DNA of 46,051 nucleotides, from assembly GCA_039679385.1 (NCBI GenBank), contig JBDKVB010000095.1, positions 1-46,051 on the forward strand. The letters are read 5' to 3'. Below are positions 1 through 46,051 of the stretch, piece by piece. The DNA comes from Armatimonadia bacterium (lineage in GTDB: Bacteria > Armatimonadota > Zipacnadia > Zipacnadales > JABUFB01). The stretch's first letter is position 1, and every line of letters begins with the position of its first letter. A model generated the notes under the pieces. It was not told where the DNA came from and made no database searches. It was given only the letters and a program-made list of their open reading frames with translations. The position numbers were made by a program, and so were the translations under genes.

Positions 1-375
1 CTGTGGTGTGATGAGAAGCACTGTGACCTGCACTCCAGCCTGCGCGCCGAGGCACGGGCGGTCAAGGAAGTGCTTGAGCACCTGGAGGAGTTGGGGGTGA
101 CTGGTGGGGCGATCCTGGTGAACGACCGTGTGCAGGCCTTCACCCTTGGCGAACCCCTGAACGAGCACACCGTCGTTTGCCATATCGAGAAGGCCAGCCC
201 GGATCTGCATGGGGCCTTCCAGGTGATCAACCGCGAGTTCCTCGCCCGGGAATGGTCTCAGTGGCGATGCGTGAACCGCGAGCAGGATGTGGGCGAGCCA
301 GGCCTGCGCAAGGCCAAGGAGAGCTATCTCCCGGCCAGGATGGTGGAGAAGTACGTCGTGACGCAGCGGTCCTAG
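1..375 (+). CDS. DUF2156 / phosphatidylglycerol lysyltransferase C-terminal-like protein, 3' part
   Basis: The frame is open from the first base, so the gene starts outside the window and only about 124 C-terminal residues are seen. The stretch has the look of the DUF2156 fold, which is related to the acyltransferase-like C-terminal domain of MprF lysyltransferases. Telling pieces are a strand reading GAILVNDRVQAFTLGEPL, then HIEKASPDLHGAFQVIN, and the closing VNREQDVGEPGLRKAKESY. In this family the domain uses an aminoacyl-tRNA or similar donor, but many members have no known substrate. The gene ends in TAG and is convergent with the next gene. Family assignment is from motif memory; the substrate is unknown. 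Confidence 0.75.
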   Translation: MWCDEKHCDLHSSLRAEARAVKEVLEHLEELGVTGGAILVNDRVQAFTLGEPLNEHTVVCHIEKASPDLHGAFQVINREFLAREWSQWRCVNREQDVGEPGLRKAKESYLPARMVEKYVVTQRS

Positions 376-406
376 CTCCGGCAGGTTCCCCTTGCGTGTC
401 CTGCCT

Positions 407-1726
407 CTAGTACAAAGTCGCATTGCGGCCTGAGCCCAGGGGTGCGTGGTTCGAAGGCTGCAGTCGGCTCGGATTCCGGAAGACGTAGACTGCGGTCGGC
501 GTCGACAGGGCGAAGTCCACGACGCCATCGCCGGTGAAGTCCCCGGTGCGGACCAGCTTCATGCCCTTGTCCTCGACCTTGAGCCTTACCAGGGGCTTTC
601 CGAAGCCGTCGGAGATGACGCAGGGATCGGGCAACAGCAACTCCGCCAGGCCGTCGCCGTTCCAGTCGAGCATCGCGTGGAACCGCGCATAGGGCATCAC
701 CCAAGTGCCCAGCCGTGCCCCTTCTGCATCGTACAAGTGCACCGGGCCTCGTCCTGCGGGATGATGCCCGTCATCGACAGCGATCTGCAGGCCAGGGACG
801 TCCGAGCGCATCTTGCCGAGGTCGAGGGACTCGAAGTGGAGCCCCGTCTGCTCCCAGATCGTCTTCCCGAGCCCGTCGGTCATCACCATGCTCGAGCTGC
901 CGCAGGTGGTCATCACCAGACGCCAGTCTTCGGGCCGCTCGCCGCGAGACATCACGCGGCAGCAATCCAGGTGGCCCTTGCGGAGGTCAACCTGCTTCGA
1001 GGAGAGCGTCCACCGAACCGCACCGTCCGGGCCGAGGAGCGCATAGCCCGCCATGACCTCGTCGCAGCCGTCGCCGTCAAGGTCCAGCGGGTAGGGCTGA
1101 TGAGCCGTGCGGTAACCGCCGGGGTGCTTGACGGTCCACAGCAGGTTCCAGTTGCGGTCATAGGCCCAGATCTGGTCGTAGCGGTCCTTGACGAGGACGT
1201 CCGTCGCTGCCGGGCCACCGGAGAAGTTCGCGAAGACCAGGCAATCGGTCGCCTGTGGGGGCAAGGGGTAACGCGCCTTCACAGAACCCCTGGCGCCGTC
1301 GAGGGCAATCAACTCGCCATCGCCGCAGACCACGATCTCCGGCCGCCCATCACGATCCCAGTCGTAGACCTGGCAGGCGACGTCATGGTGCAGGGCAGAT
1401 CGCCCCAGGTCGCGGCCTCCCCAGCGCCACAGCAGCGAGCCATCCAGACGGTGGACTACCACGGCGCTGGTGTAGTGCACGTCGCCCACGTTGACGTTGC
1501 GGGCGCTGATGACCTCGACCTCACCATCCGCGTTCACGTCTTCCAGAACCACCCACTGGCCGGAGTAGTCAGGGTCCAGTGGCACAACCTTCCAGGGCGC
1601 GACTTCGGGCAGTTCGGCCGGGAGCGGCTGTGTCAGGTCACAGAGGAAGCCGGCGGACGCGCAGGTCGACAGACCAAGGAGTGCGGCAAGGACCGTCAGC
1701 AGGACCCCAGTGGCGGCGGTAACCAT
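407..1726 (-). CDS. Secreted FG-GAP/VCBS-repeat beta-propeller protein
   Basis: This 439-residue protein starts with a typical signal peptide (hydrophobic residues about 5-25, cleavage near ASA-G). The mature part carries repeated calcium-loop signatures of the FG-GAP/VCBS type: DVNADGEVEV, DWDRDGRPEI, DLDGDGCDEV, DWNGDGLAEL and DFTGDGVVDF. Such repeats form integrin-like propellers that work outside the cytoplasm, often in binding or as part of polysaccharide lyases. No catalytic domain is recognisable, so a binding or structural role is an inference. It stands alone: the upstream gene is convergent and the downstream neighbour is divergent. The long frame on the opposite strand is its shadow. 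Confidence 0.8.
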   Translation of the reverse strand: MVTAATGVLLTVLAALLGLSTCASAGFLCDLTQPLPAELPEVAPWKVVPLDPDYSGQWVVLEDVNADGEVEVISARNVNVGDVHYTSAVVVHRLDGSLLWRWGGRDLGRSALHHDVACQVYDWDRDGRPEIVVCGDGELIALDGARGSVKARYPLPPQATDCLVFANFSGGPAATDVLVKDRYDQIWAYDRNWNLLWTVKHPGGYRTAHQPYPLDLDGDGCDEVMAGYALLGPDGAVRWTLSSKQVDLRKGHLDCCRVMSRGERPEDWRLVMTTCGSSSMVMTDGLGKTIWEQTGLHFESLDLGKMRSDVPGLQIAVDDGHHPAGRGPVHLYDAEGARLGTWVMPYARFHAMLDWNGDGLAELLLPDPCVISDGFGKPLVRLKVEDKGMKLVRTGDFTGDGVVDFALSTPTAVYVFRNPSRLQPSNHAPLGSGRNATLY

Positions 1727-2093
1727 CGCGGAGGACCTCCAGGAGCTATCGGTAGCGCACAGAGGGTGGTTCCTCTTGGGCGCCCAAGTGTCCTTGTGCC
1801 CTGACGTGTTCCGCCGGCGACGACCGCCCTGGAGTCAGGGGTCCCCCTGTCAGAAGGACGGCTACAACCGGCGAGGCTGTGATCTGGTCCTTAAGTTAAC
1901 GTAATCAAGATTTTGGGGCGTACCCCTTCCTCGACGCCCTGGTGCTCCGGGGGACGTAAGAGAAAGGCGACGAAGACCACGGCTGAAGGCTTCGAGAGAA
2001 GTGCCCAGGTGTCCGTGCTCAGCGCCCGCCAAGGCTTGCCAAGGCTGGAGGTGACCTGATATACTGCCCTCGGAGCATGGATCAGGCGTTTGT
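1727..2093. other. Divergent intergenic region of 367 bases
   Basis: This gap separates the minus-strand propeller gene from the plus-strand secreted protein and should hold both promoters. A patch at 1891-1920 is unusually AT-rich for the window (TTAAGTTAACGTAATC and then ATTTT). A promoter-like pair for the plus strand lies at its right end. I found no convincing small gene; the minus-strand frame across 1862-2182 has biased composition and no recognisable features. Confidence 0.5.
2036..2065 (+). promoter_or_regulatory. Sigma-70-like promoter for the 2094/2142 gene
   Basis: TTGCCA at 2036-2041 and TATACT at 2060-2065 are separated by 18 bases. Transcription would begin near 2072, just before the first possible start codon. 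The match is by eye only. Confidence 0.45.
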
Positions 2094-2909
2094 GTGCCCC
2101 GCTGTCGGGCAGACGGCCTTCCCGAAGCCACTCCAGGCAAGGTGGGAGACGCCACGGTCAGGACAGGATTCACACCCCGCACGTCACTCCAACCGGCCCT
2201 GCTTGTGTGCTATGCCCTTATGTGGGTGATGGCCGCTGCCTACGGGCAAGAGACCCCGGCTCCGGTCACCCCGGCGCCGCCAACACCTCTTGAGGCCGCC
2301 GATCAGGCTGCCCGTGCCTTCGACTACGCGACGGCGCTGAAGTCACTCGAGCAGGCAGCCAGTTCTGCCTCCGCGGAGGACGCGGCACGCCTCAAGCAGC
2401 GCCAGGCTCTCTACGAGCAGTACCTGGGTCTCACAACACTGGTCGACCTCGCACGTGACAACCCGGACCGTCTGGTCGGTGTGGCGACGACTCGTGGCGG
2501 CAGGAAGCTGGCCGGACTGGTGCAGATGGCTGAGCTGGGCATCAAGCCGGAGGCACGCATCGGTAACCGGGTCATCGACGACGGGGCCTTCGCTCTCGCG
2601 GTCTCTGCCGAGAGCACAGTGACGGTCAAGGCGCGCGAGATTGCTCAGTTTGCTGTGACCTGGGCAGCCCCGACCCCCGAGGGCTGGCCCAACTACTGGT
2701 CCATCGCCAAGATCCATGCGGTGCTGCAGACCGGTGAGGTCGTCGAGGGCAAGCCGACCTGGTTTCTCCCCCTCAGCACCCTCACCGTTCGCGAGACGCC
2801 AGATGCCGAAGACACCACCATCGCGGTCTACCCGGCAATGGGCAAGCCCATCAGCGCGGACGACCTCCTCAGTGAGGTCATCCTCGTGGGCGCCCCGCCC
2901 ATGCCCTGA
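2094..2909 (+). CDS. Putative secreted or membrane-anchored protein of unknown function
   Basis: The open frame starts with GTG at 2094; a second GTG at 2142 is equally plausible, and neither has a strong ribosome site. A hydrophobic stretch, LLVCYALMWVMAAAYG, followed by a Pro/Thr-rich linker (TPAPVTPAPPTP) looks like a signal peptide or anchor. The next about 60 residues are helical and Ala-rich (possibly a tetratricopeptide-like pair), and the C-terminal half is probably beta-rich. I do not recognise the family. It lies 16 bases before the next gene and is probably cotranscribed with it and the radical SAM gene, so the group may share a job. Confidence 0.6.
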   Translation: MPRCRADGLPEATPGKVGDATVRTGFTPRTSLQPALLVCYALMWVMAAAYGQETPAPVTPAPPTPLEAADQAARAFDYATALKSLEQAASSASAEDAARLKQRQALYEQYLGLTTLVDLARDNPDRLVGVATTRGGRKLAGLVQMAELGIKPEARIGNRVIDDGAFALAVSAESTVTVKAREIAQFAVTWAAPTPEGWPNYWSIAKIHAVLQTGEVVEGKPTWFLPLSTLTVRETPDAEDTTIAVYPAMGKPISADDLLSEVILVGAPPMP

Positions 2910-2925
2910 GAGAGAGGCTACCCCC

Positions 2926-3765
2926 ATGGACGACAACATCTTCCCTTTCCCTGGTGACGGAGACCTTGAGGACCTGTCCGACCTTGATCTGGATATGGCC
3001 GCCTTCGGATTCTCGCTGACGGTGGCCGAAGGCAAGCGTCTCATCGCCAAGGGCGTGGTTGCGGATAGCGCGGTGCAGGAGTCGATGGAAGAGGGCATGG
3101 TGGCGGTCTGCAAGGGCTCCACCAACGCCTATGTGCTCGAGGAGCTGCTGGGAGGGGACATCGACAAGGGCAAGTACGTTCTGGGCAAGGTCCTTCCCGT
3201 CGGCGATGAACGCGCGCCGCAGGCCTTCAAGGGCAGTATCCCGGAAGTCATCTTCCGGCAGGGCGAGGTCGTTGAGGGAATGACGGTTGCTCAGGCGGTA
3301 ACGGAGATGTCCGTCGGCGATGTGGTGCTCAAGGGCGCCAACATCATCGACTATGCAACCCGTACTGCCGGCGTACTCATCGGCCATCCGGCGGGAGGCA
3401 CGCTGGGCTCGATCCTCGGCTCAGTCTACGGGAAGGGGCTCTCGCTCATCATCCCGGTGGGCCTGGAGAAGCAGACGGCCACCCCGGCGGTCTTGAGCAA
3501 GATGGCCCCTCCGACCGATGCCTGCGCCGGTTACGGTATCCCTCGCCTGTGGCCGATTCAGGGCACTCTGTTCACGGAGCTCGAGGCACTGAACACCCTC
3601 GCGGGAGTCCAGGTGCTCCAGACCGGCGCCGGTGGTCTGTGTGGCGCCGAGGGGGCAGTCTGTCTGATTGCCTTCGGCTTCGAGGAAGAGGTCGAGGCCG
3701 CCAAGGAAGTCATCAGCCAGGTGCAGGGCGAACCCTCCTTCTGGGACGCAGTCATGGGCAAGTAG
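2926..3765 (+). CDS. Conserved-looking hypothetical protein, Gly-rich core
   Basis: The ATG at 2926 follows GAGAGAGG and gives 279 residues; the frame stays open further upstream, but that part overlaps the previous gene and has poor composition. The N-terminus is very acidic (DLEDLSDLDLDMAAF). The core contains GVLIGHPAGGTLGSILGSVY, then LIIPVGLEKQ, and near the end LQTGAGGLCGAEGAVCLIAF. These Gly-rich segments look like a conserved nucleotide-, cofactor- or metabolite-binding surface. There is no signal peptide, so it is probably cytoplasmic. I cannot name the family. It sits 49 bases before the AmrS gene, which may hint at a shared pathway. Confidence 0.7.
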   Translation: MDDNIFPFPGDGDLEDLSDLDLDMAAFGFSLTVAEGKRLIAKGVVADSAVQESMEEGMVAVCKGSTNAYVLEELLGGDIDKGKYVLGKVLPVGDERAPQAFKGSIPEVIFRQGEVVEGMTVAQAVTEMSVGDVVLKGANIIDYATRTAGVLIGHPAGGTLGSILGSVYGKGLSLIIPVGLEKQTATPAVLSKMAPPTDACAGYGIPRLWPIQGTLFTELEALNTLAGVQVLQTGAGGLCGAEGAVCLIAFGFEEEVEAAKEVISQVQGEPSFWDAVMGK

Positions 3766-3814
3766 GAGGCGCCGGTTGCGGTCGACGCCGGGGAGGAGAC
3801 TGGGGTGAGCTGGA

Positions 3815-4801
3815 ATGCATGAAGCGCGGTACTATGAGGTCGAAGAGGGCCGGGCCCAGTGCCTGCTGTGTCCCTTCCATTGCCGCATCGCAGAGGGACA
3901 GACCGGCCGCTGCAGAGTCCGCGAGTTCCGGGACGGCAAGCTGTGGAGCCGCAACTGGGGGCAGGTGACCTCTGTGGCCCTGGACCCGGTGGAGAAGAAG
4001 CCGCTGTACCACTTCCACCCGGGAGCGCCGATTCTGTCGCTGGGCACCTACGGGTGCAATCTCAAGTGCGACTTCTGCCAGAACTGGGCGATCTCGCAGG
4101 AGACGCCGTCGACCCAAAGCCTGGAGCCGATCCACGCCGTCAAACTGGCGGAGAAGCACCAGGTGGACGGGAACATCGGCATCGCCTACACCTACAACGA
4201 GCCCTTCATCTGGTATGAGTTCGTTCTGGAGACTGCGAAGCTAATCCACGACCGGGGCATGGTCAACGTCCTGGTGACGAACGGCATAGTGGAGGAGGAG
4301 CCCCTGCAGGAGCTTCTCCCCTACATCGACGCGATGAACGTTGACATCAAGAGTATCCGCTCCGACTTCTATCGGCGGCTCTGCGGTGGTGACGGTCACG
4401 CGGCCCGGCGTACGGTAGAGATGGCCTTCGGGCGTTGCGCCGTCGAGATCACGAACCTGGTGATCACCGGCGAGAACGATTCTGACGCGGACCTCGCCGA
4501 CCTGTTTGACTGGGCCGCGTCGGTGTCGCGCAGGCTGCCGGTACACCTGTCGCGCTACCATCCGGCCTACAAGATGCAGGCGCCGACGACGCCCGTCGAG
4601 ACCTTGCGCAGAGCCTACGAGCTCGCCCGTGAGCGTCTGGACTTCGTGTACGTGGGCAACCTGCATCTGAACGGGACGACCGACACGATCTGCCCGCGGT
4701 GCGGAGCAGTGGCAGTCGAACGCGAGGGCTTCTCAGCGTGGCCGAAGACCCGCGATGGCCGCTGCGCCTCCTGCGGAGAGGAGCTTGGTATTGTTGTCTA
4801 G
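3815..4801 (+). CDS. amrS: AmmeMemoRadiSam system radical SAM enzyme (AmrS)
   Basis: A 328-residue radical SAM protein with the [4Fe-4S] motif C-x3-C-x2-C at C81, C85 and C88 (CNLKCDFCQN). It also has the N-terminal Cys set of this family (CLLCPFHC, then GRCRVRE) and a C-terminal Cys-rich knuckle (CPRCG and CASCGEE). Internal blocks YTYNEPFIWYE, VTNGIVEEEP and MNVDIKS are typical of AmrS/PflA-like activases. Homologs are usually coupled to AMMECR1- and Memo-type proteins; neither is next to this gene. The reaction is not established. The gene runs into the next one with overlapping ends, implying cotranscription. Confidence 0.88.
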   Translation: MHEARYYEVEEGRAQCLLCPFHCRIAEGQTGRCRVREFRDGKLWSRNWGQVTSVALDPVEKKPLYHFHPGAPILSLGTYGCNLKCDFCQNWAISQETPSTQSLEPIHAVKLAEKHQVDGNIGIAYTYNEPFIWYEFVLETAKLIHDRGMVNVLVTNGIVEEEPLQELLPYIDAMNVDIKSIRSDFYRRLCGGDGHAARRTVEMAFGRCAVEITNLVITGENDSDADLADLFDWAASVSRRLPVHLSRYHPAYKMQAPTTPVETLRRAYELARERLDFVYVGNLHLNGTTDTICPRCGAVAVEREGFSAWPKTRDGRCASCGEELGIVV

Positions 4802-38174: not shown

Positions 38175-38228
38175 CTAACCTCGGCCTAACCGGGACTTAA
38201 GCCTCCCGTAACCCCGGCACCCTATGCT
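38175..38228 (+). promoter_or_regulatory. Pho-type operator and -10 for the DUF1559 pseudopilin gene
   Basis: CTAAC, CTAAC, TTAAG and GTAAC begin at 38175, 38186, 38197 and 38208, exactly 11 bases apart. A -10-like TATGCT lies at 38223-38228, close after the repeats, an arrangement known from PhoB-activated promoters where the box replaces the -35. The ATG is 58 bases further on. Confidence 0.65.
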
Positions 38229-38286
38229 GAAGCTGCCCACGACCCTTCCGGGCCGTGGAGTAACGCTCGCACAAGGAGCACGCGAA

Positions 38287-39213
38287 ATGTCCCGACGTCA
38301 CGGTTTCACGCTCATCGAACTGCTCGTGGTGATCGCGATCATCGCGATCCTGGCATCCATCCTGTTCCCGGTGTTCGCGCGGGCACGCGCCAAGGCTCGC
38401 CAGACAAGCTGCCTCAGCAATGAGAAGCAGATCGGCCTGGCTATGCTCATGTATTCCTCCGACTACGACGATACGCTGCCGTCCTCCTACTACTATGTCA
38501 ATGGCTCCAACAAGAACAACGGCTACGTGCAGTGGAGCGGCGCGGTGCTCCCCTATGTGAAGAACCAGCAGATCTTCGTGTGTCCTGAGCATCAGGTCAA
38601 GGGTTGGGCACCGACCTGCTTCACCACGCCTCCGGTCGATCCGCCCGCGGGCCAGACCTCCGCAGTTGCCGGTGTCAACGACGTCCAGGCTCCACGGCTC
38701 AGCTATGTAGCCAACGAGCTCCTGATCCCGCGCAAGAAGTACGCTTCCATCCCGCAGCAGGTTGTGAGCCTGTCGAACGTTGACGCGCCTTCCGACGTGA
38801 TCCTGCTTGCCGAGTACACGGACAGTCTCTCGTCGCTCCTCGACAGCTCGCCAACCGGCGGAGATGCCATCAAGTCTCACCGGCCGACGAATGCCGTGAG
38901 CATGGGTGGAGCAGTCTTCGACGGCGAGAGCTACGTCCCCGGCACGCCCGTGATCGCCCTGACACCTGCACAGTGCAAGACCGCAATCGACGCCGCGAAG
39001 ACCAGCAGCGCCATGGGCAACCACCATATCTGCTACATCAACCCGGAAATGCACAATGGCGGCAGCAACTACGTGTTCGCCGATGGCCATGCCAAGTGGT
39101 ACAGCCTGGGCCAGACTCTCGACCCCAACAACTTCCTCTGGGGCAAGCGCGCGTACTCCTGCCCCGGCTCACCGGCCATCCAGCGAGCCGACGGTAGCGG
39201 CCCCGTCAACTAG
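38287..39213 (+). CDS. DUF1559 pseudopilin with prepilin N-terminus and H-X9-DG motif
   Basis: 308 residues from ATG 38287 with AAGGAG eight bases upstream. The prepilin peptidase site and helix are textbook: [20 protein letters not shown], with cleavage after Gly and Glu at +5. The helix is followed by [35 protein letters not shown], and near the end [12 protein letters not shown] (H-X9-DG). Such proteins are numerous in Armatimonadota and Planctomycetota and are thought to be type II secretion/type IV pilus-like surface proteins. A single gene, apparently under the pho operator before it. Most of the globular part has no known function. Confidence 0.93.
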
Positions 39214-42355: not shown

Positions 42356-42817
42356 GTGAAGCTCAGAGCCCTTGTCATCGACGACTCACGTATCATGCGC
42401 CGTATGGTCATGGACGGACTGCAGAAGACAAACCTGGCGACTTTCGAGTTCATCGAGGCCGAGGATGGCGTCGACGCCCTCAGCAAGTTCAGCCCCGACG
42501 ACATCGACATCGTGTTCGCCGACTGGAACATGCCTCGCATGACCGGCATCGAGTTCGCCCACAAGATCCGGGCCATGCCCAACACCGACCACATCCCCAT
42601 CATTATGGTCACCAGCGAGAAGACCATGGGCAAGATGGAAATCGCCCTCGACAAAGCGGGAGCCAGCGCCTACGTGAGCAAGCCCTTCACAGTGGAGGAG
42701 CTCCAGCGCAAGCTCGCCCGGGTGATCGCCGGCATCCAGTCTCGTCCCCAGACCCCAAAGCCTCCGAAATCCGGTGGCGGCGGGTTCTTCAGCAAGCTCA
42801 TGCGTGACATGGGCTAA
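42356..42817 (+). CDS. cheY: CheY-like response regulator
   Basis: 153 residues from GTG 42356, with GGAGGT nine bases upstream. Receiver landmarks: acidic pocket VIDDSRIMRRMVMD (D9, D10), phospho-acceptor D56 in VFADWNMPRMTG, the Thr of IIMVTSEKT, and the Lys of YVSKPFTVEEL. A 25-residue Pro/Lys/Gly tail follows the domain. It is the output regulator for the CheA encoded 0.6 kb downstream. Whether it acts on a flagellar motor or on pili cannot be told here. Confidence 0.92.
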   Translation: MKLRALVIDDSRIMRRMVMDGLQKTNLATFEFIEAEDGVDALSKFSPDDIDIVFADWNMPRMTGIEFAHKIRAMPNTDHIPIIMVTSEKTMGKMEIALDKAGASAYVSKPFTVEELQRKLARVIAGIQSRPQTPKPPKSGGGGFFSKLMRDMG

Positions 42818-42904: not shown

Positions 42905-43399
42905 ATGGCGACCACCACTTCTGTCCCAGAAACCTATCCGCTCGACGCACAACTCGCCTGCGCAAGGGACTCCGTCCTCACCACGCTCTCCTCGGCCTGC
43001 TCGACGGAGGGGAGCTATGCGGGCAACGACGACGAGACCTGTCCCTGTGACGGTGTCGCAGGAATCATCTCGCTGGTCGGAGACATCAGTTGGTCCCTGA
43101 TGTGGACCTTTCCGCAGCAGGTCGCGACACAACTCGCCGTGCGTTTCGCAGGCTTCGACATCGAGTATGAGAGCGACGACATGACGGACGTTGTGGGCGA
43201 GCTCGCGAACGTCCTCGCCGGCGAGGCACTTGCAAGACTTGATGCACTTGGGGTTAAGGCGACGATGGGTTTGCCGATGGTTGTACGGGGCACGAACCTG
43301 AACCTGATGCTGCCCGACGGCACCCCGCGGATACACCTGCGCTTTTCCTGCGACGAGGGTCCCTTCTACCTCATTCTGGGTGCCCGCAAACAGGCGTAG
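42905..43399 (+). CDS. cheX: CheX-type chemotaxis phosphatase
   Basis: 164 residues. The CheC/CheX active helix is visible as DMTDVVGELANVLAGEALARL, with the Glu and Asn (ExxN) that stimulate loss of phosphate from CheY. A beta core (LNLMLPDGTPRIHLRF) surrounds it. AGAGGT precedes the ATG. Between cheY and cheA, its natural substrate is the neighbouring CheY. CheX works as a dimer in known members. Confidence 0.88.
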   Translation: MATTTSVPETYPLDAQLACARDSVLTTLSSACSTEGSYAGNDDETCPCDGVAGIISLVGDISWSLMWTFPQQVATQLAVRFAGFDIEYESDDMTDVVGELANVLAGEALARLDALGVKATMGLPMVVRGTNLNLMLPDGTPRIHLRFSCDEGPFYLILGARKQA

Positions 43400-43410: not shown

Positions 43411-45930
43411 ATGATGGGAGGTCTGACCAGACACCCTATGGATCCAACACCCGCCGATGTCCTGGGACGAGCAGTAGCGCAACTCAGCCGCCTGGACCCG
43501 GGCGACCGTGATGCAGTCGTCGAGATGGGAACGATGCTCGAGGAAGCGTTCTCTGGGCTGTCCCCGGAGCAACCGCAGGCCCAGGCACACCTCATGACGG
43601 CCCTGTCTGGCCTGCAGGCCGTATTCACCGGCACGGCAGACAGTCCCGCGTCGGTCATCTCCCAGGTCAAAGACGCTGTGGCGCACGCTCTCGAAGCCCT
43701 GGCCGAAACACCCGCCGAGGAGCCGACCGTGCCGGAGGCGTGCGAAGACACTTACGCCACGCCGCCGACCCTCGACGAGGTGGCCAGCCTGCTGGTGCGG
43801 ACCAATACCGAAGACCCGGAGCAGTTGCAGCAGCTTGCGACCGCCCTGCATGCCGTCGGAAGCCGGCCGGACCTCCCGGAGGAGGTTGCCCTCGAGCTTC
43901 ACGAGGCGTGCGCAGCCGCAGACGACCTTGGAGGGGCAACTCCCGAGCAGTGGCCCGCCCTCCTGGACCAGATCAGCACGCACCTACAGGCCGCGATGCC
44001 CGAGGAGGCCCTGACGGAGCCGACGCCAGACTCAGAGGCCGCTGTCTCCTTTGATACGGACACGGACACAGAGGCCGAGACCAGTACACCCTGGGGCCAA
44101 CTGCCGGACGACGCCGACCCCGACCTCCTCAGCGAGTTCATCACCGAGACGCGCGACAACATCTCAGGCGCCGAGGCCGCACTCCTTGCCCTGGAGACCG
44201 ATCCCACCGACGAGGAGAGCGTCAATACCGTCTTCCGCGCCTTCCACACGATCAAAGGGACCTCCGCCTTTCTGGGTCTGGATGCGATCACCGGGATGGC
44301 TCATCGGGCGGAGTCTCTTCTGAGCCGTGTGCGAGATCACGAAGTCGTGTTTGCCGATGCCTGCGCAGACCTTGCGCTCCGGGCCATCGACATGCTCAAG
44401 GAGCTCACGCACGCCCTTCAGGATGCCCTCGGCGGCGTGCCAATGACCGAGCCGGCGACCTATGCAGACCTGATGCGGTGCCTCAATGACCCCGACTTGT
44501 CCGCCCAGGCTGACCCGGGACCGCAGGCGCCCCGTGTTGGCGACATCCTCGTGGCCGAGGCCGTCGTGCCCCGCGACGACGTCGAGTTGGTGCAGGCGTC
44601 GCAGGGGCAAAGGCCCATCGGTGAGGCGCTCGTGCAGTCCGGCCTGGCAAAGGTCACCGATGTGGCCCGAGCCCTGCGCACTCAGCGTCGGATGAGCACC
44701 GACACTCGGGCGGCGGAGAACACTGTTCGTGTTCGCACCGACCGTCTCGACAAGCTCATTGAGGCCGTCGGCGAGCTGGTGATCGCCCATTCGATGATTG
44801 CCCAGGACCAAGGCGTGATCGATCAGGGGCACCACGAACTCGCCAAGAAGATCACGCGCACGACCAAGATCATCCGGGAGCTGCAGGACCTGAGCATGGC
44901 CATGCGCATGGTGCCTCTCAAGCCCACCTTCCAGAAGATGGCGCGACTTGCCCGAGACGTCAGCCACAAGTGCGGCAAGCACGTCGAGTTTCTCACCGAG
45001 GGCGAGGACACCGAGATTGACCGGAACATGGTGGACATCATCGGTGACCCGCTGGTGCACCTCGTCCGGAATGCCGTTGACCACGGCGTCGAGTCCCCGG
45101 AGGAGAGAGCTGCAGCAGGCAAGCCGACTGTCGGTCGGGTTCGTCTCGTCGCCTACCACGCCGGCGGCAATGTCGTGGTCGAGATCCAGGATGACGGCAA
45201 GGGCCTGGACCGTGAGCGCATCCTGACGAAGGCCGCCAGTCGGGGCATCATCGAGGCCGACCGCGGGATGTCCGACAGCGAAGTGTACAACCTCATCCTC
45301 GCGCCGGGCTTCTCGACGGCCGACAAGGTAACCGATGTCTCGGGCCGTGGCGTCGGGCTCGACGTTGTGAAGCGGAACGTCGAGTCTCTGCGTGGACGTG
45401 TCGACATCAGCTCCTCGCCCGGCCAGGGCTCCACCTTCTCCCTCCGGCTGCCTCTCACCCTGGCAGTCACCGACGGGATGTTGGTGCAGGTTGGCGCCGA
45501 ACGCTACATCATCCCGACCGCCAACATCGACGTCAGCCTCCAGCCTACCGAGGACTCGCTATCCACAGTAGCCGGTCACGGGGAGATGGCGATGGTGCGT
45601 GACGAGCTGATGCCCATCGTGCGCGCACACCGTCTCTTCGGGGTCCGTGATGCCGTCGAGGACCCCACGAAGGGGCTGCTGGTGGCGGTCGACGATGGGG
45701 ACCATCGCTACGCCTTGCTGGTCGATGCCTTGCTGGGACAGCAGCAGGTGGTTGCCAAGTCCCTGGGCGACGGAACCTGGCGCGTTCCCGGCGTGAGTGG
45801 TGGTGCGATTCTGGGAGACGGACGGGTCGGGCTCATTCTGGACACCTCGGGTGTCTACGCCCTCGCACGGGAAGGTACGGGGCCACGTCCTGCCTCGACC
45901 GGAACGAGCCCGACCCTTGCTCTAGCCTGA
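43411..45930 (+). CDS. cheA: Chemotaxis histidine kinase CheA with extra N-terminal and MshEN-like modules
   Basis: 839 residues (ATG 43411; ATG 43438 after GGGAGG is an alternative). Residues 1-225 are an acidic helical region, apparently with two similar units and no known family. Hpt domain about 228-340 with phospho-acceptor H279 (AFHTIKGTSAFLG). At 377-426, GDILVAEAVVPRDDVELVQA followed by IGEALVQSGLAKVTDVARAL resembles the N-domain of GspE/MshE ATPases, in the place of the usual P2. Then dimerisation, ATPase (HLVRNAVDHGVE, DDGKGLDRERIL, GRGVGLDVVKRN) and CheW-like domain (GMLVQVGAERYIIPTANIDV). It receives receptor signals and phosphorylates CheY. Confidence 0.93.
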   Translation: MMGGLTRHPMDPTPADVLGRAVAQLSRLDPGDRDAVVEMGTMLEEAFSGLSPEQPQAQAHLMTALSGLQAVFTGTADSPASVISQVKDAVAHALEALAETPAEEPTVPEACEDTYATPPTLDEVASLLVRTNTEDPEQLQQLATALHAVGSRPDLPEEVALELHEACAAADDLGGATPEQWPALLDQISTHLQAAMPEEALTEPTPDSEAAVSFDTDTDTEAETSTPWGQLPDDADPDLLSEFITETRDNISGAEAALLALETDPTDEESVNTVFRAFHTIKGTSAFLGLDAITGMAHRAESLLSRVRDHEVVFADACADLALRAIDMLKELTHALQDALGGVPMTEPATYADLMRCLNDPDLSAQADPGPQAPRVGDILVAEAVVPRDDVELVQASQGQRPIGEALVQSGLAKVTDVARALRTQRRMSTDTRAAENTVRVRTDRLDKLIEAVGELVIAHSMIAQDQGVIDQGHHELAKKITRTTKIIRELQDLSMAMRMVPLKPTFQKMARLARDVSHKCGKHVEFLTEGEDTEIDRNMVDIIGDPLVHLVRNAVDHGVESPEERAAAGKPTVGRVRLVAYHAGGNVVVEIQDDGKGLDRERILTKAASRGIIEADRGMSDSEVYNLILAPGFSTADKVTDVSGRGVGLDVVKRNVESLRGRVDISSSPGQGSTFSLRLPLTLAVTDGMLVQVGAERYIIPTANIDVSLQPTEDSLSTVAGHGEMAMVRDELMPIVRAHRLFGVRDAVEDPTKGLLVAVDDGDHRYALLVDALLGQQQVVAKSLGDGTWRVPGVSGGAILGDGRVGLILDTSGVYALAREGTGPRPASTGTSPTLALA

Positions 45931-45967: not shown

Positions 45968-46051
45968 ATGAGCGGCGTTACCACAGACGCACAGACGGCG
46001 GTCCCCGCGAGGGGGCCCGACGACGACCTCGTCGAGCGGAGCCGAGGCGGG
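45968..46051 (+). CDS. 5' part of a gene downstream of cheA, function not visible
   Basis: AAAGGAG at 45956-45962 and ATG at 45968 start a frame that is open for all 28 codons to the window end (MSGVTTDAQTAVPARGPDDD, then an Arg/Gly-rich stretch). By position it should be another chemotaxis component such as CheW, a receptor or CheB/CheR, but the visible residues are not diagnostic. Confidence 0.6.
   Translation, partial: MSGVTTDAQTAVPARGPDDDLVERSRGG

Follow-up and report, generated by a model that had tools for sequence, protein, structure and literature searches.

The window analysed here is the whole of contig C95 (46,051 nucleotides), one of the 184 contigs of a 5.6 Mb Armatimonadia genome, and its last complete genes are cheY, cheX and cheA, all on the forward strand. 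The first, cheY (42356..42817; 153 aa; Pfam Response_reg, 2.4e-23), begins with GTG after a ggaggt ribosome-binding-like site and is followed by the phosphatase gene cheX (42905..43399; Pfam CheX, 8.1e-16). The third, cheA (43411..45930), is an open reading frame of 839 aa, whose translation may start at the second ATG (43438, residue 10). Domain analysis revealed an Hpt domain (P1; residues 238-328, 44122..44394; 6.9e-14) with His279 as phospho-acceptor, the dimerisation domain P3 (H-kinase_dim; residues 437-498, 44719..44904), the HATPase_c kinase domain P4 (residues 546-683, 45046..45459; 9.1e-19) and the CheW-like domain P5 (residues 689-815, 45475..45855), all over the Pfam cut-off and in CheA order, confirming membership of the CheA family. 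His279 is the same residue in every row of a 22-row alignment of CheAs. The overall architecture is P1-[MshEN_N-like]-P3-P4-P5 with an extra N-terminal region; a preliminary description of this DNA had put about 225 residues ahead of the Hpt domain, and Pfam bears this out with about 237. The genome as a whole gives one match each to H-kinase_dim and the CheW domain, making this its sole CheA.

To place these genes in context, we compared them with contig C173 of the same genome (G000), which opens (positions 1-4086; L060/L119) with the end of an mcp gene, cheR, cheD, a second cheX and cheB. This mcp end, from base 3 of the contig on, is the genome's sole MCP match. In two relatives (G232 and G233), the gene order, read from gene clusters and Pfam on part of them, is cheY-cheX-cheA-cheW-mcp-cheR-cheD-cheY-cheX-cheB. 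From this order, C95 probably adjoins C173, and the gap between them would contain cheW and most of mcp. With cheY and cheX upstream of cheA and the C173 genes in the order of both relatives, these genes make up a che operon of the ordinary type. An assembly gap at window position 46051, the contig end, apparently interrupts it.

Genes for both kinds of motility are present in the genome. It encodes FliG, FliM, flagellin, FliD and FliS, together with 11 T2SSE matches (pilus-type ATPases), one of them below the family cut-off; a check for flagellar versus pilus genes, suggested in the preliminary description, finds both. The same description proposed that the kinase might dock to pilus machinery and that CheY could act on twitching, a proposal that gains no support from the sole CheA, the flagellar genes and the ordinary che operon. 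Nor does the kinase resemble the Tfp class, which combines several Hpt domains with a C-terminal receiver domain (PMC10782961): by Pfam it has one Hpt and no receiver domain. Three consecutive PilT-like T2SSE ATPases on C173 (L119, 11003-15026), about 7 kb downstream of cheB, are at most a hint of twitching; flagellar output of the chemotaxis system is the simplest reading, with twitching a possible one. Elsewhere in the window, a prepilin-like N-terminus was seen by eye at 38224-39213. As for c-di-GMP, the genome has three GGDEF matches and no PilZ match; a search for receptors of the MshEN and PilZ families found only the MshEN type.

Between the Hpt and dimerisation domains, the usual place of P2, the kinase carries a four-helix module (residues 375-425, 44533..44685) identified by profile search, AlphaFold2 and structure matching. 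It consists of two 24-residue MshEN-type motifs, motif I at residues 375-398 (RVGDILVAEAVVPRDDVELVQASQ) and motif II at residues 402-425 (PIGEALVQSGLAKVTDVARALRTQ), joined by a 3-residue spacer (residues 399-401). No Pfam match to P2, the CheY-binding domain, was found in this CheA, and Pfam misses most P2s (PMC10782961). The preliminary description had placed a module like the N-domain of pilus/secretion ATPases at the P2 site within residues 370-430, and our analysis supports it. The proposed Pfam profile check for MshEN nevertheless came out negative, the whole CheA being without a match at E <= 10; likewise, Pfam MshEN (PF05157) matched 0 of 23 CheA module segments at E <= 1. The same model does match two pilus-type ATPases of this genome. 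DUF4388 matched 7 of the 23 modules weakly (best 0.0089). Despite the silent Pfam MshEN model, the module is divergent, not absent, as the following comparisons reveal.

Searched alone against the PDB, the window module matched Thermus PilF at E = 5e-4. A profile built from the 23 CheA modules (A3) retrieved 22 distinct PDB sequences at E <= 10, of which the best 13 are all MshE, PilB or PilF GSPII domains (8.5e-23 to 1.5e-4; PilF at 8.5e-23, 5htl at 5.8e-7), the first unrelated match being annexin I at 0.056. Structure prediction agreed with this assignment: AlphaFold2 gave four helices with pLDDT of about 93-96 over the module, and the 14 best Foldseek rows consist entirely of N-domains of MshE, PilF or PilB, at weak E-values (0.087-1.1). 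VIA-align of the model to c-di-GMP-bound MshE (5htl_B) yielded Z 9.6 and an rmsd of 1.4 A over 56 residues, with unrelated folds at Z <= 5.9. Homology to the MshEN/GSPII N-domain of pilus and secretion ATPases is thereby established. A chance match of short amphipathic helices would accord with the modest single-sequence E-value, the silence of Pfam and the Z of 5-6 reached by small helical folds such as fumarase C-termini. We consider it very improbable, given that the profile sets 13 GSPII sequences more than two orders of magnitude apart from everything else, that the fold match is close, and that carriers more distant from the window (L066, L067 and L075) hold more canonical, indeed near-canonical, motifs in the same position. 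The MshEN_C subdomain is absent, since motif II ends at residue 425 and P3 begins at 437, leaving about 11 residues between; isolated MshEN_N still binds c-di-GMP (PMC5013675).

The ligand site of Vibrio cholerae MshE (5htl) comprises R9, L10, G11, L25, L29 and Q32 plus R38, L39, G40, L54, L58 and Q61, with a 5-residue joint; R9, G11, G40 and Q61 contact guanine, ribose or phosphate, and L29 belongs to a leucine triad beneath guanine 1 (PMC5013675). At these 12 positions the window reads, in order, R, V, G, V, Q, Q and P, I, G, V, L, Q. The preliminary description held that lack of the MshEN ligand-binding residues would count against its idea, and here the outcome was mixed: six of the 12 base- or phosphate-contact positions are identical (R9, G11, Q32, G40, L58 and Q61 in MshE numbering) and four conservative (L10V, L25V, L39I, L54V), with D12 also kept, whereas two are non-conservative (L29Q, R38P) and the spacer has 3 residues. 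The strict c-di-GMP-binding class is defined by two motifs RLGxx(LVI)(LVI)xxG(LVI)(LVI)xxxxLxxxLxxQ with a 5-residue spacer (PMC5013675), from which the window module departs at L10V, G18A, L25V, L29Q, R38P, L39I, L54V and in its spacer; the authors' relaxed pattern is passed by motif II only. Compared with V. cholerae MshE, the module therefore shares the paired 24-residue motifs, the four-helix bundle and the six identical residues, but differs in the shorter spacer, the substituted site positions and the missing MshEN_C, and in sitting inside a chemotaxis kinase (PMC5013675).

These departures are largely shared by related kinases. Across 13 modules with a 3-residue spacer, drawn from several phyla, R9, G11 and G40 are kept in 13/13, D12 in 12/13 (E in the other) and Q61 in 12/13. 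Position 29 is A in 11, Q in one (the window) and E in one; Q32 is kept in 6/13, and position 38 is P in 11/13. The counts indicate that the polar and backbone contacts are conserved and part of the leucine stack is not. The best sequence match of the window module, GSPII-C of Thermus thermophilus PilF (6f8l/6ejf; PMC11731258), binds c-di-GMP with MshEN-like affinity despite a motif II starting with P (PMC11731258) and, as read from the window-PilF alignment, has V at the L54 position as the window does; it differs in keeping L29, in its longer spacer and in belonging to a pilus motor ATPase. In the non-binding XpsE, by comparison, the lost residues include G11, G40 and Q61 (PMC5013675). The window module fails the strict consensus and is a borderline case beside relatives whose binding has been measured, so that c-di-GMP binding appears possible from these residue comparisons. 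Because the site is partly altered, a link between second messenger and navigation is plausible at most.

To investigate the prevalence of the module, we assembled relatives from 22 loci of named genome contigs and from 291 genomes of the phylum, 135 of which have a CheA-like match at 1e-60. Judged by eye, 24 of 39 CheA sequences carry the module, or 23 of 38 distinct ones, as two share a contig. Using a profile of the module plus P3 (A5), and counting the module where the query start lay at or before position 18, we found matches reaching the module in 14 of the 291 phylum genomes, out of 78 with any match at 1e-10; some of these loci are also in the profile, and the 14 include the uninspected G009. 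Named carriers comprise Desulfobacteraceae, a Gemmatimonadales MAG, an Acidobacteria MAG, Planctomycetota MAGs and an Abditibacteriales MAG. Motif II of two CheA rows, L069 and L076, is misaligned in the motif-by-motif comparison. In two carriers, L075 and L076, additional sequence separates Hpt from the module; there is room in it for a P2, of which Pfam found none.

We then mapped the module, with presence set by eye, onto a 51-row kinase-core tree, after dropping L073 (long branch), L047 and L041 (duplicates), L072 (on the contig of L009) and L012 (a fragment). Its distribution requires 9 changes, and 0 of 500 shuffles were as low; a well-supported clade (100/97) of 31 rows holds 20 of the 22 carriers. 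This clustering indicates that the module is mostly inherited, with repeated loss (in L003, L007, L011 and L068) or some gain. Its absence from these four relatives indicates that it is dispensable. A nearly neutral role is another reading: the module would be a relic or a spacer, inherited as an MshEN domain and doing no more than fix the length of the P1-P3 linker. This accords with its loss in several relatives, the truncated motif II of L069 and the broken strict consensus. We regard this as unlikely: the three invariant columns of the 23-row module alignment are MshEN positions 11, 40 and 61, the module persists across several phyla, and its fold is predicted with high confidence.

The N-terminal region ahead of P1 is also structured. 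AlphaFold2 predicted two four-helix bundles, D1 (residues 14-99, 43450..43707; pLDDT mostly 92-98) and D2 (residues 121-201, 43771..44013), which hhalign shows to be homologous (probability 92, E 5.6e-7, 83 columns), the other nine pairings among the five CheA domains reaching probabilities of 0.1 to 4.5. By position, D1 and D2 could dock partners. A reading of the bundles as degenerate Hpt domains was rejected, as hhalign gave probabilities of 0.7 for D1-P1 and 4.5 for D2-P1, with no profile link; Hpt was also not among the best 25 of the 44 Pfam families matched by the N-terminal regions of 17 relatives. The D1 structure does match CheA P1 (1i5n_C; Z 10.5, rmsd 2.5, 95 residues), but this match ranks below designed four-helix bundles (Z 13) and may reflect just a common arrangement. 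True second Hpt domains occur at about the D2 position in L008, L013 and L015, and profiles give no connection between them and D2. As a separate observation, L008, L013, L015 and L018 carry an extra Hpt-type motif before P1, around the site of the N-terminal bundles of the window clade.

Alignment of the CheY proteins revealed a C-terminal FFx[KR]L tail, in the window GGFFSKLMRDMG (42779..42814, forward strand), after a flexible-looking linker. It is present in 11 of 11 closest CheYs (the window and 10 distinct relatives: L061, L062, L063, L064, L065, L068, L070, L003, L004 and L009) and in 0 of 22 other receiver-domain matches of the same loci, including the second CheY of the same operons; within this set, CheYs of other CheA clades are also without it. 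All 11 tailed CheYs lie near CheAs with D1 and D2, and two such CheAs (L003 and L068) are without the module. The tail could be a docking peptide replacing P2, or a membrane-targeting tail of the kind found in MinD.

This distribution bears on whether the module serves protein contacts instead of a ligand. It may no longer bind nucleotide and act as a landing pad taking over the role of P2, with the module or D1-D2 docking CheY, CheX, CheB or an array neighbour, for instance through the CheY FFxKL tail. We hold this to be a real possibility and rank it second among the readings considered. The restriction of the tail to the closest CheYs and the altered L29, R38 and spacer are in keeping with it, as are two precedents: PilF GSPII-A does not bind c-di-GMP and is proposed to be a protein landing pad (PMC12002112), and the N-domain of X. 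citri PilB binds PilZ (structures 7lkm/7lko). However, R9, D12 and Q61 are conserved, though a plain scaffold would not need them, and tail and module do not occur in step: in L003 and L068 a tailed CheY accompanies a module-less CheA, and in L066 and L067 the module is present and the nearest CheY has no tail.

The reading we prefer, with a probability of about 0.4, makes the module an input domain placed on the P1-P3 linker and binding a c-di-GMP-type ligand. Under this proposal, the module would be a regulatory input that still binds a c-di-GMP-type cyclic dinucleotide in an altered and probably weaker site, its motif II resembling PilF GSPII-C and its motif I being changed at L29. Binding would alter the freedom of P1 to reach the kinase core, and the second messenger could thereby adjust the phosphotransfer that CheY receives, in addition to the control exerted by receptors. 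In a kinase without P2, CheY capture would proceed differently, perhaps through the C-terminal FFxKL tail of CheY itself. Several lines of evidence point to this input-domain reading: conservation of R9, G11, D12, G40 and Q61, three of which (G11, G40 and Q61) are among the losses in XpsE; binding by PilF GSPII-C with the same P at the start of motif II and the same V at L54; the GGDEF proteins of a genome with no PilZ match; and the homology, fold match and clustering of the module on the CheA tree. Against it stand the change at L29, the retention of Q32 in 6 of 13, the 3-residue spacer, the silence of Pfam, the absence of MshEN_C, the dispensability of the module and the example of PilF GSPII-A, a close relative, that binding can be lost.

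Whether a cell moves or settles is governed by both c-di-GMP and chemotaxis, for the most part through separate proteins. With a nucleotide-receptor fold inside the central kinase, the second messenger could govern kinase output without an intermediary. A wider reading, which we consider doubtful, is that these proteins represent a widespread, largely overlooked CheA family, in which an in-kinase cyclic-dinucleotide receptor would directly gate phosphotransfer from P1 and, within the core clade, the CheY FFxKL tail, docking on the N-terminal bundles or the module, would stand in for P2; as part of this joint reading, the ligand would be c-di-GMP, or else a related dinucleotide to which the changed pocket at L29 and the short spacer are better suited. 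The ligand question can be reduced to one small domain and a binding assay.

The association of MshEN with CheA is itself known since 2016, when Wang et al. mentioned MshEN fusions with CheA and CheX (PMC5013675); this is a text mention, with no sequence class, binding test or operon in the available part of that paper. P2 is missing from more than half of CheAs, according to a survey of their architectures published in 2023 (PMC10782961), and the window kinase likewise has a P1-P3-P4-P5 core without a Pfam P2. For CheAs without P2, the survey regards the stretch as lacking structure, whereas here it is a folded domain, and a term search of its available text returned no MshEN, GSPII or T2SSE (PMC10782961). 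Because Pfam is blind to the divergent module, a class of kinases may be mis-described. Our literature searches found no study of a CheA with an MshEN-like module, and in the literature searched the variant module, the paired N-terminal helical bundles and the conserved CheY FFxKL tail appear unreported.

The number of motifs also varies among these proteins. PilF has three tandem GSPII motifs, unlike the window CheA with its single pair, and in a Desulfobacteraceae CheA (L010, 6805-7167) an extra copy of motif I (PRVGDLLVAQGK...) precedes the usual motif pair.
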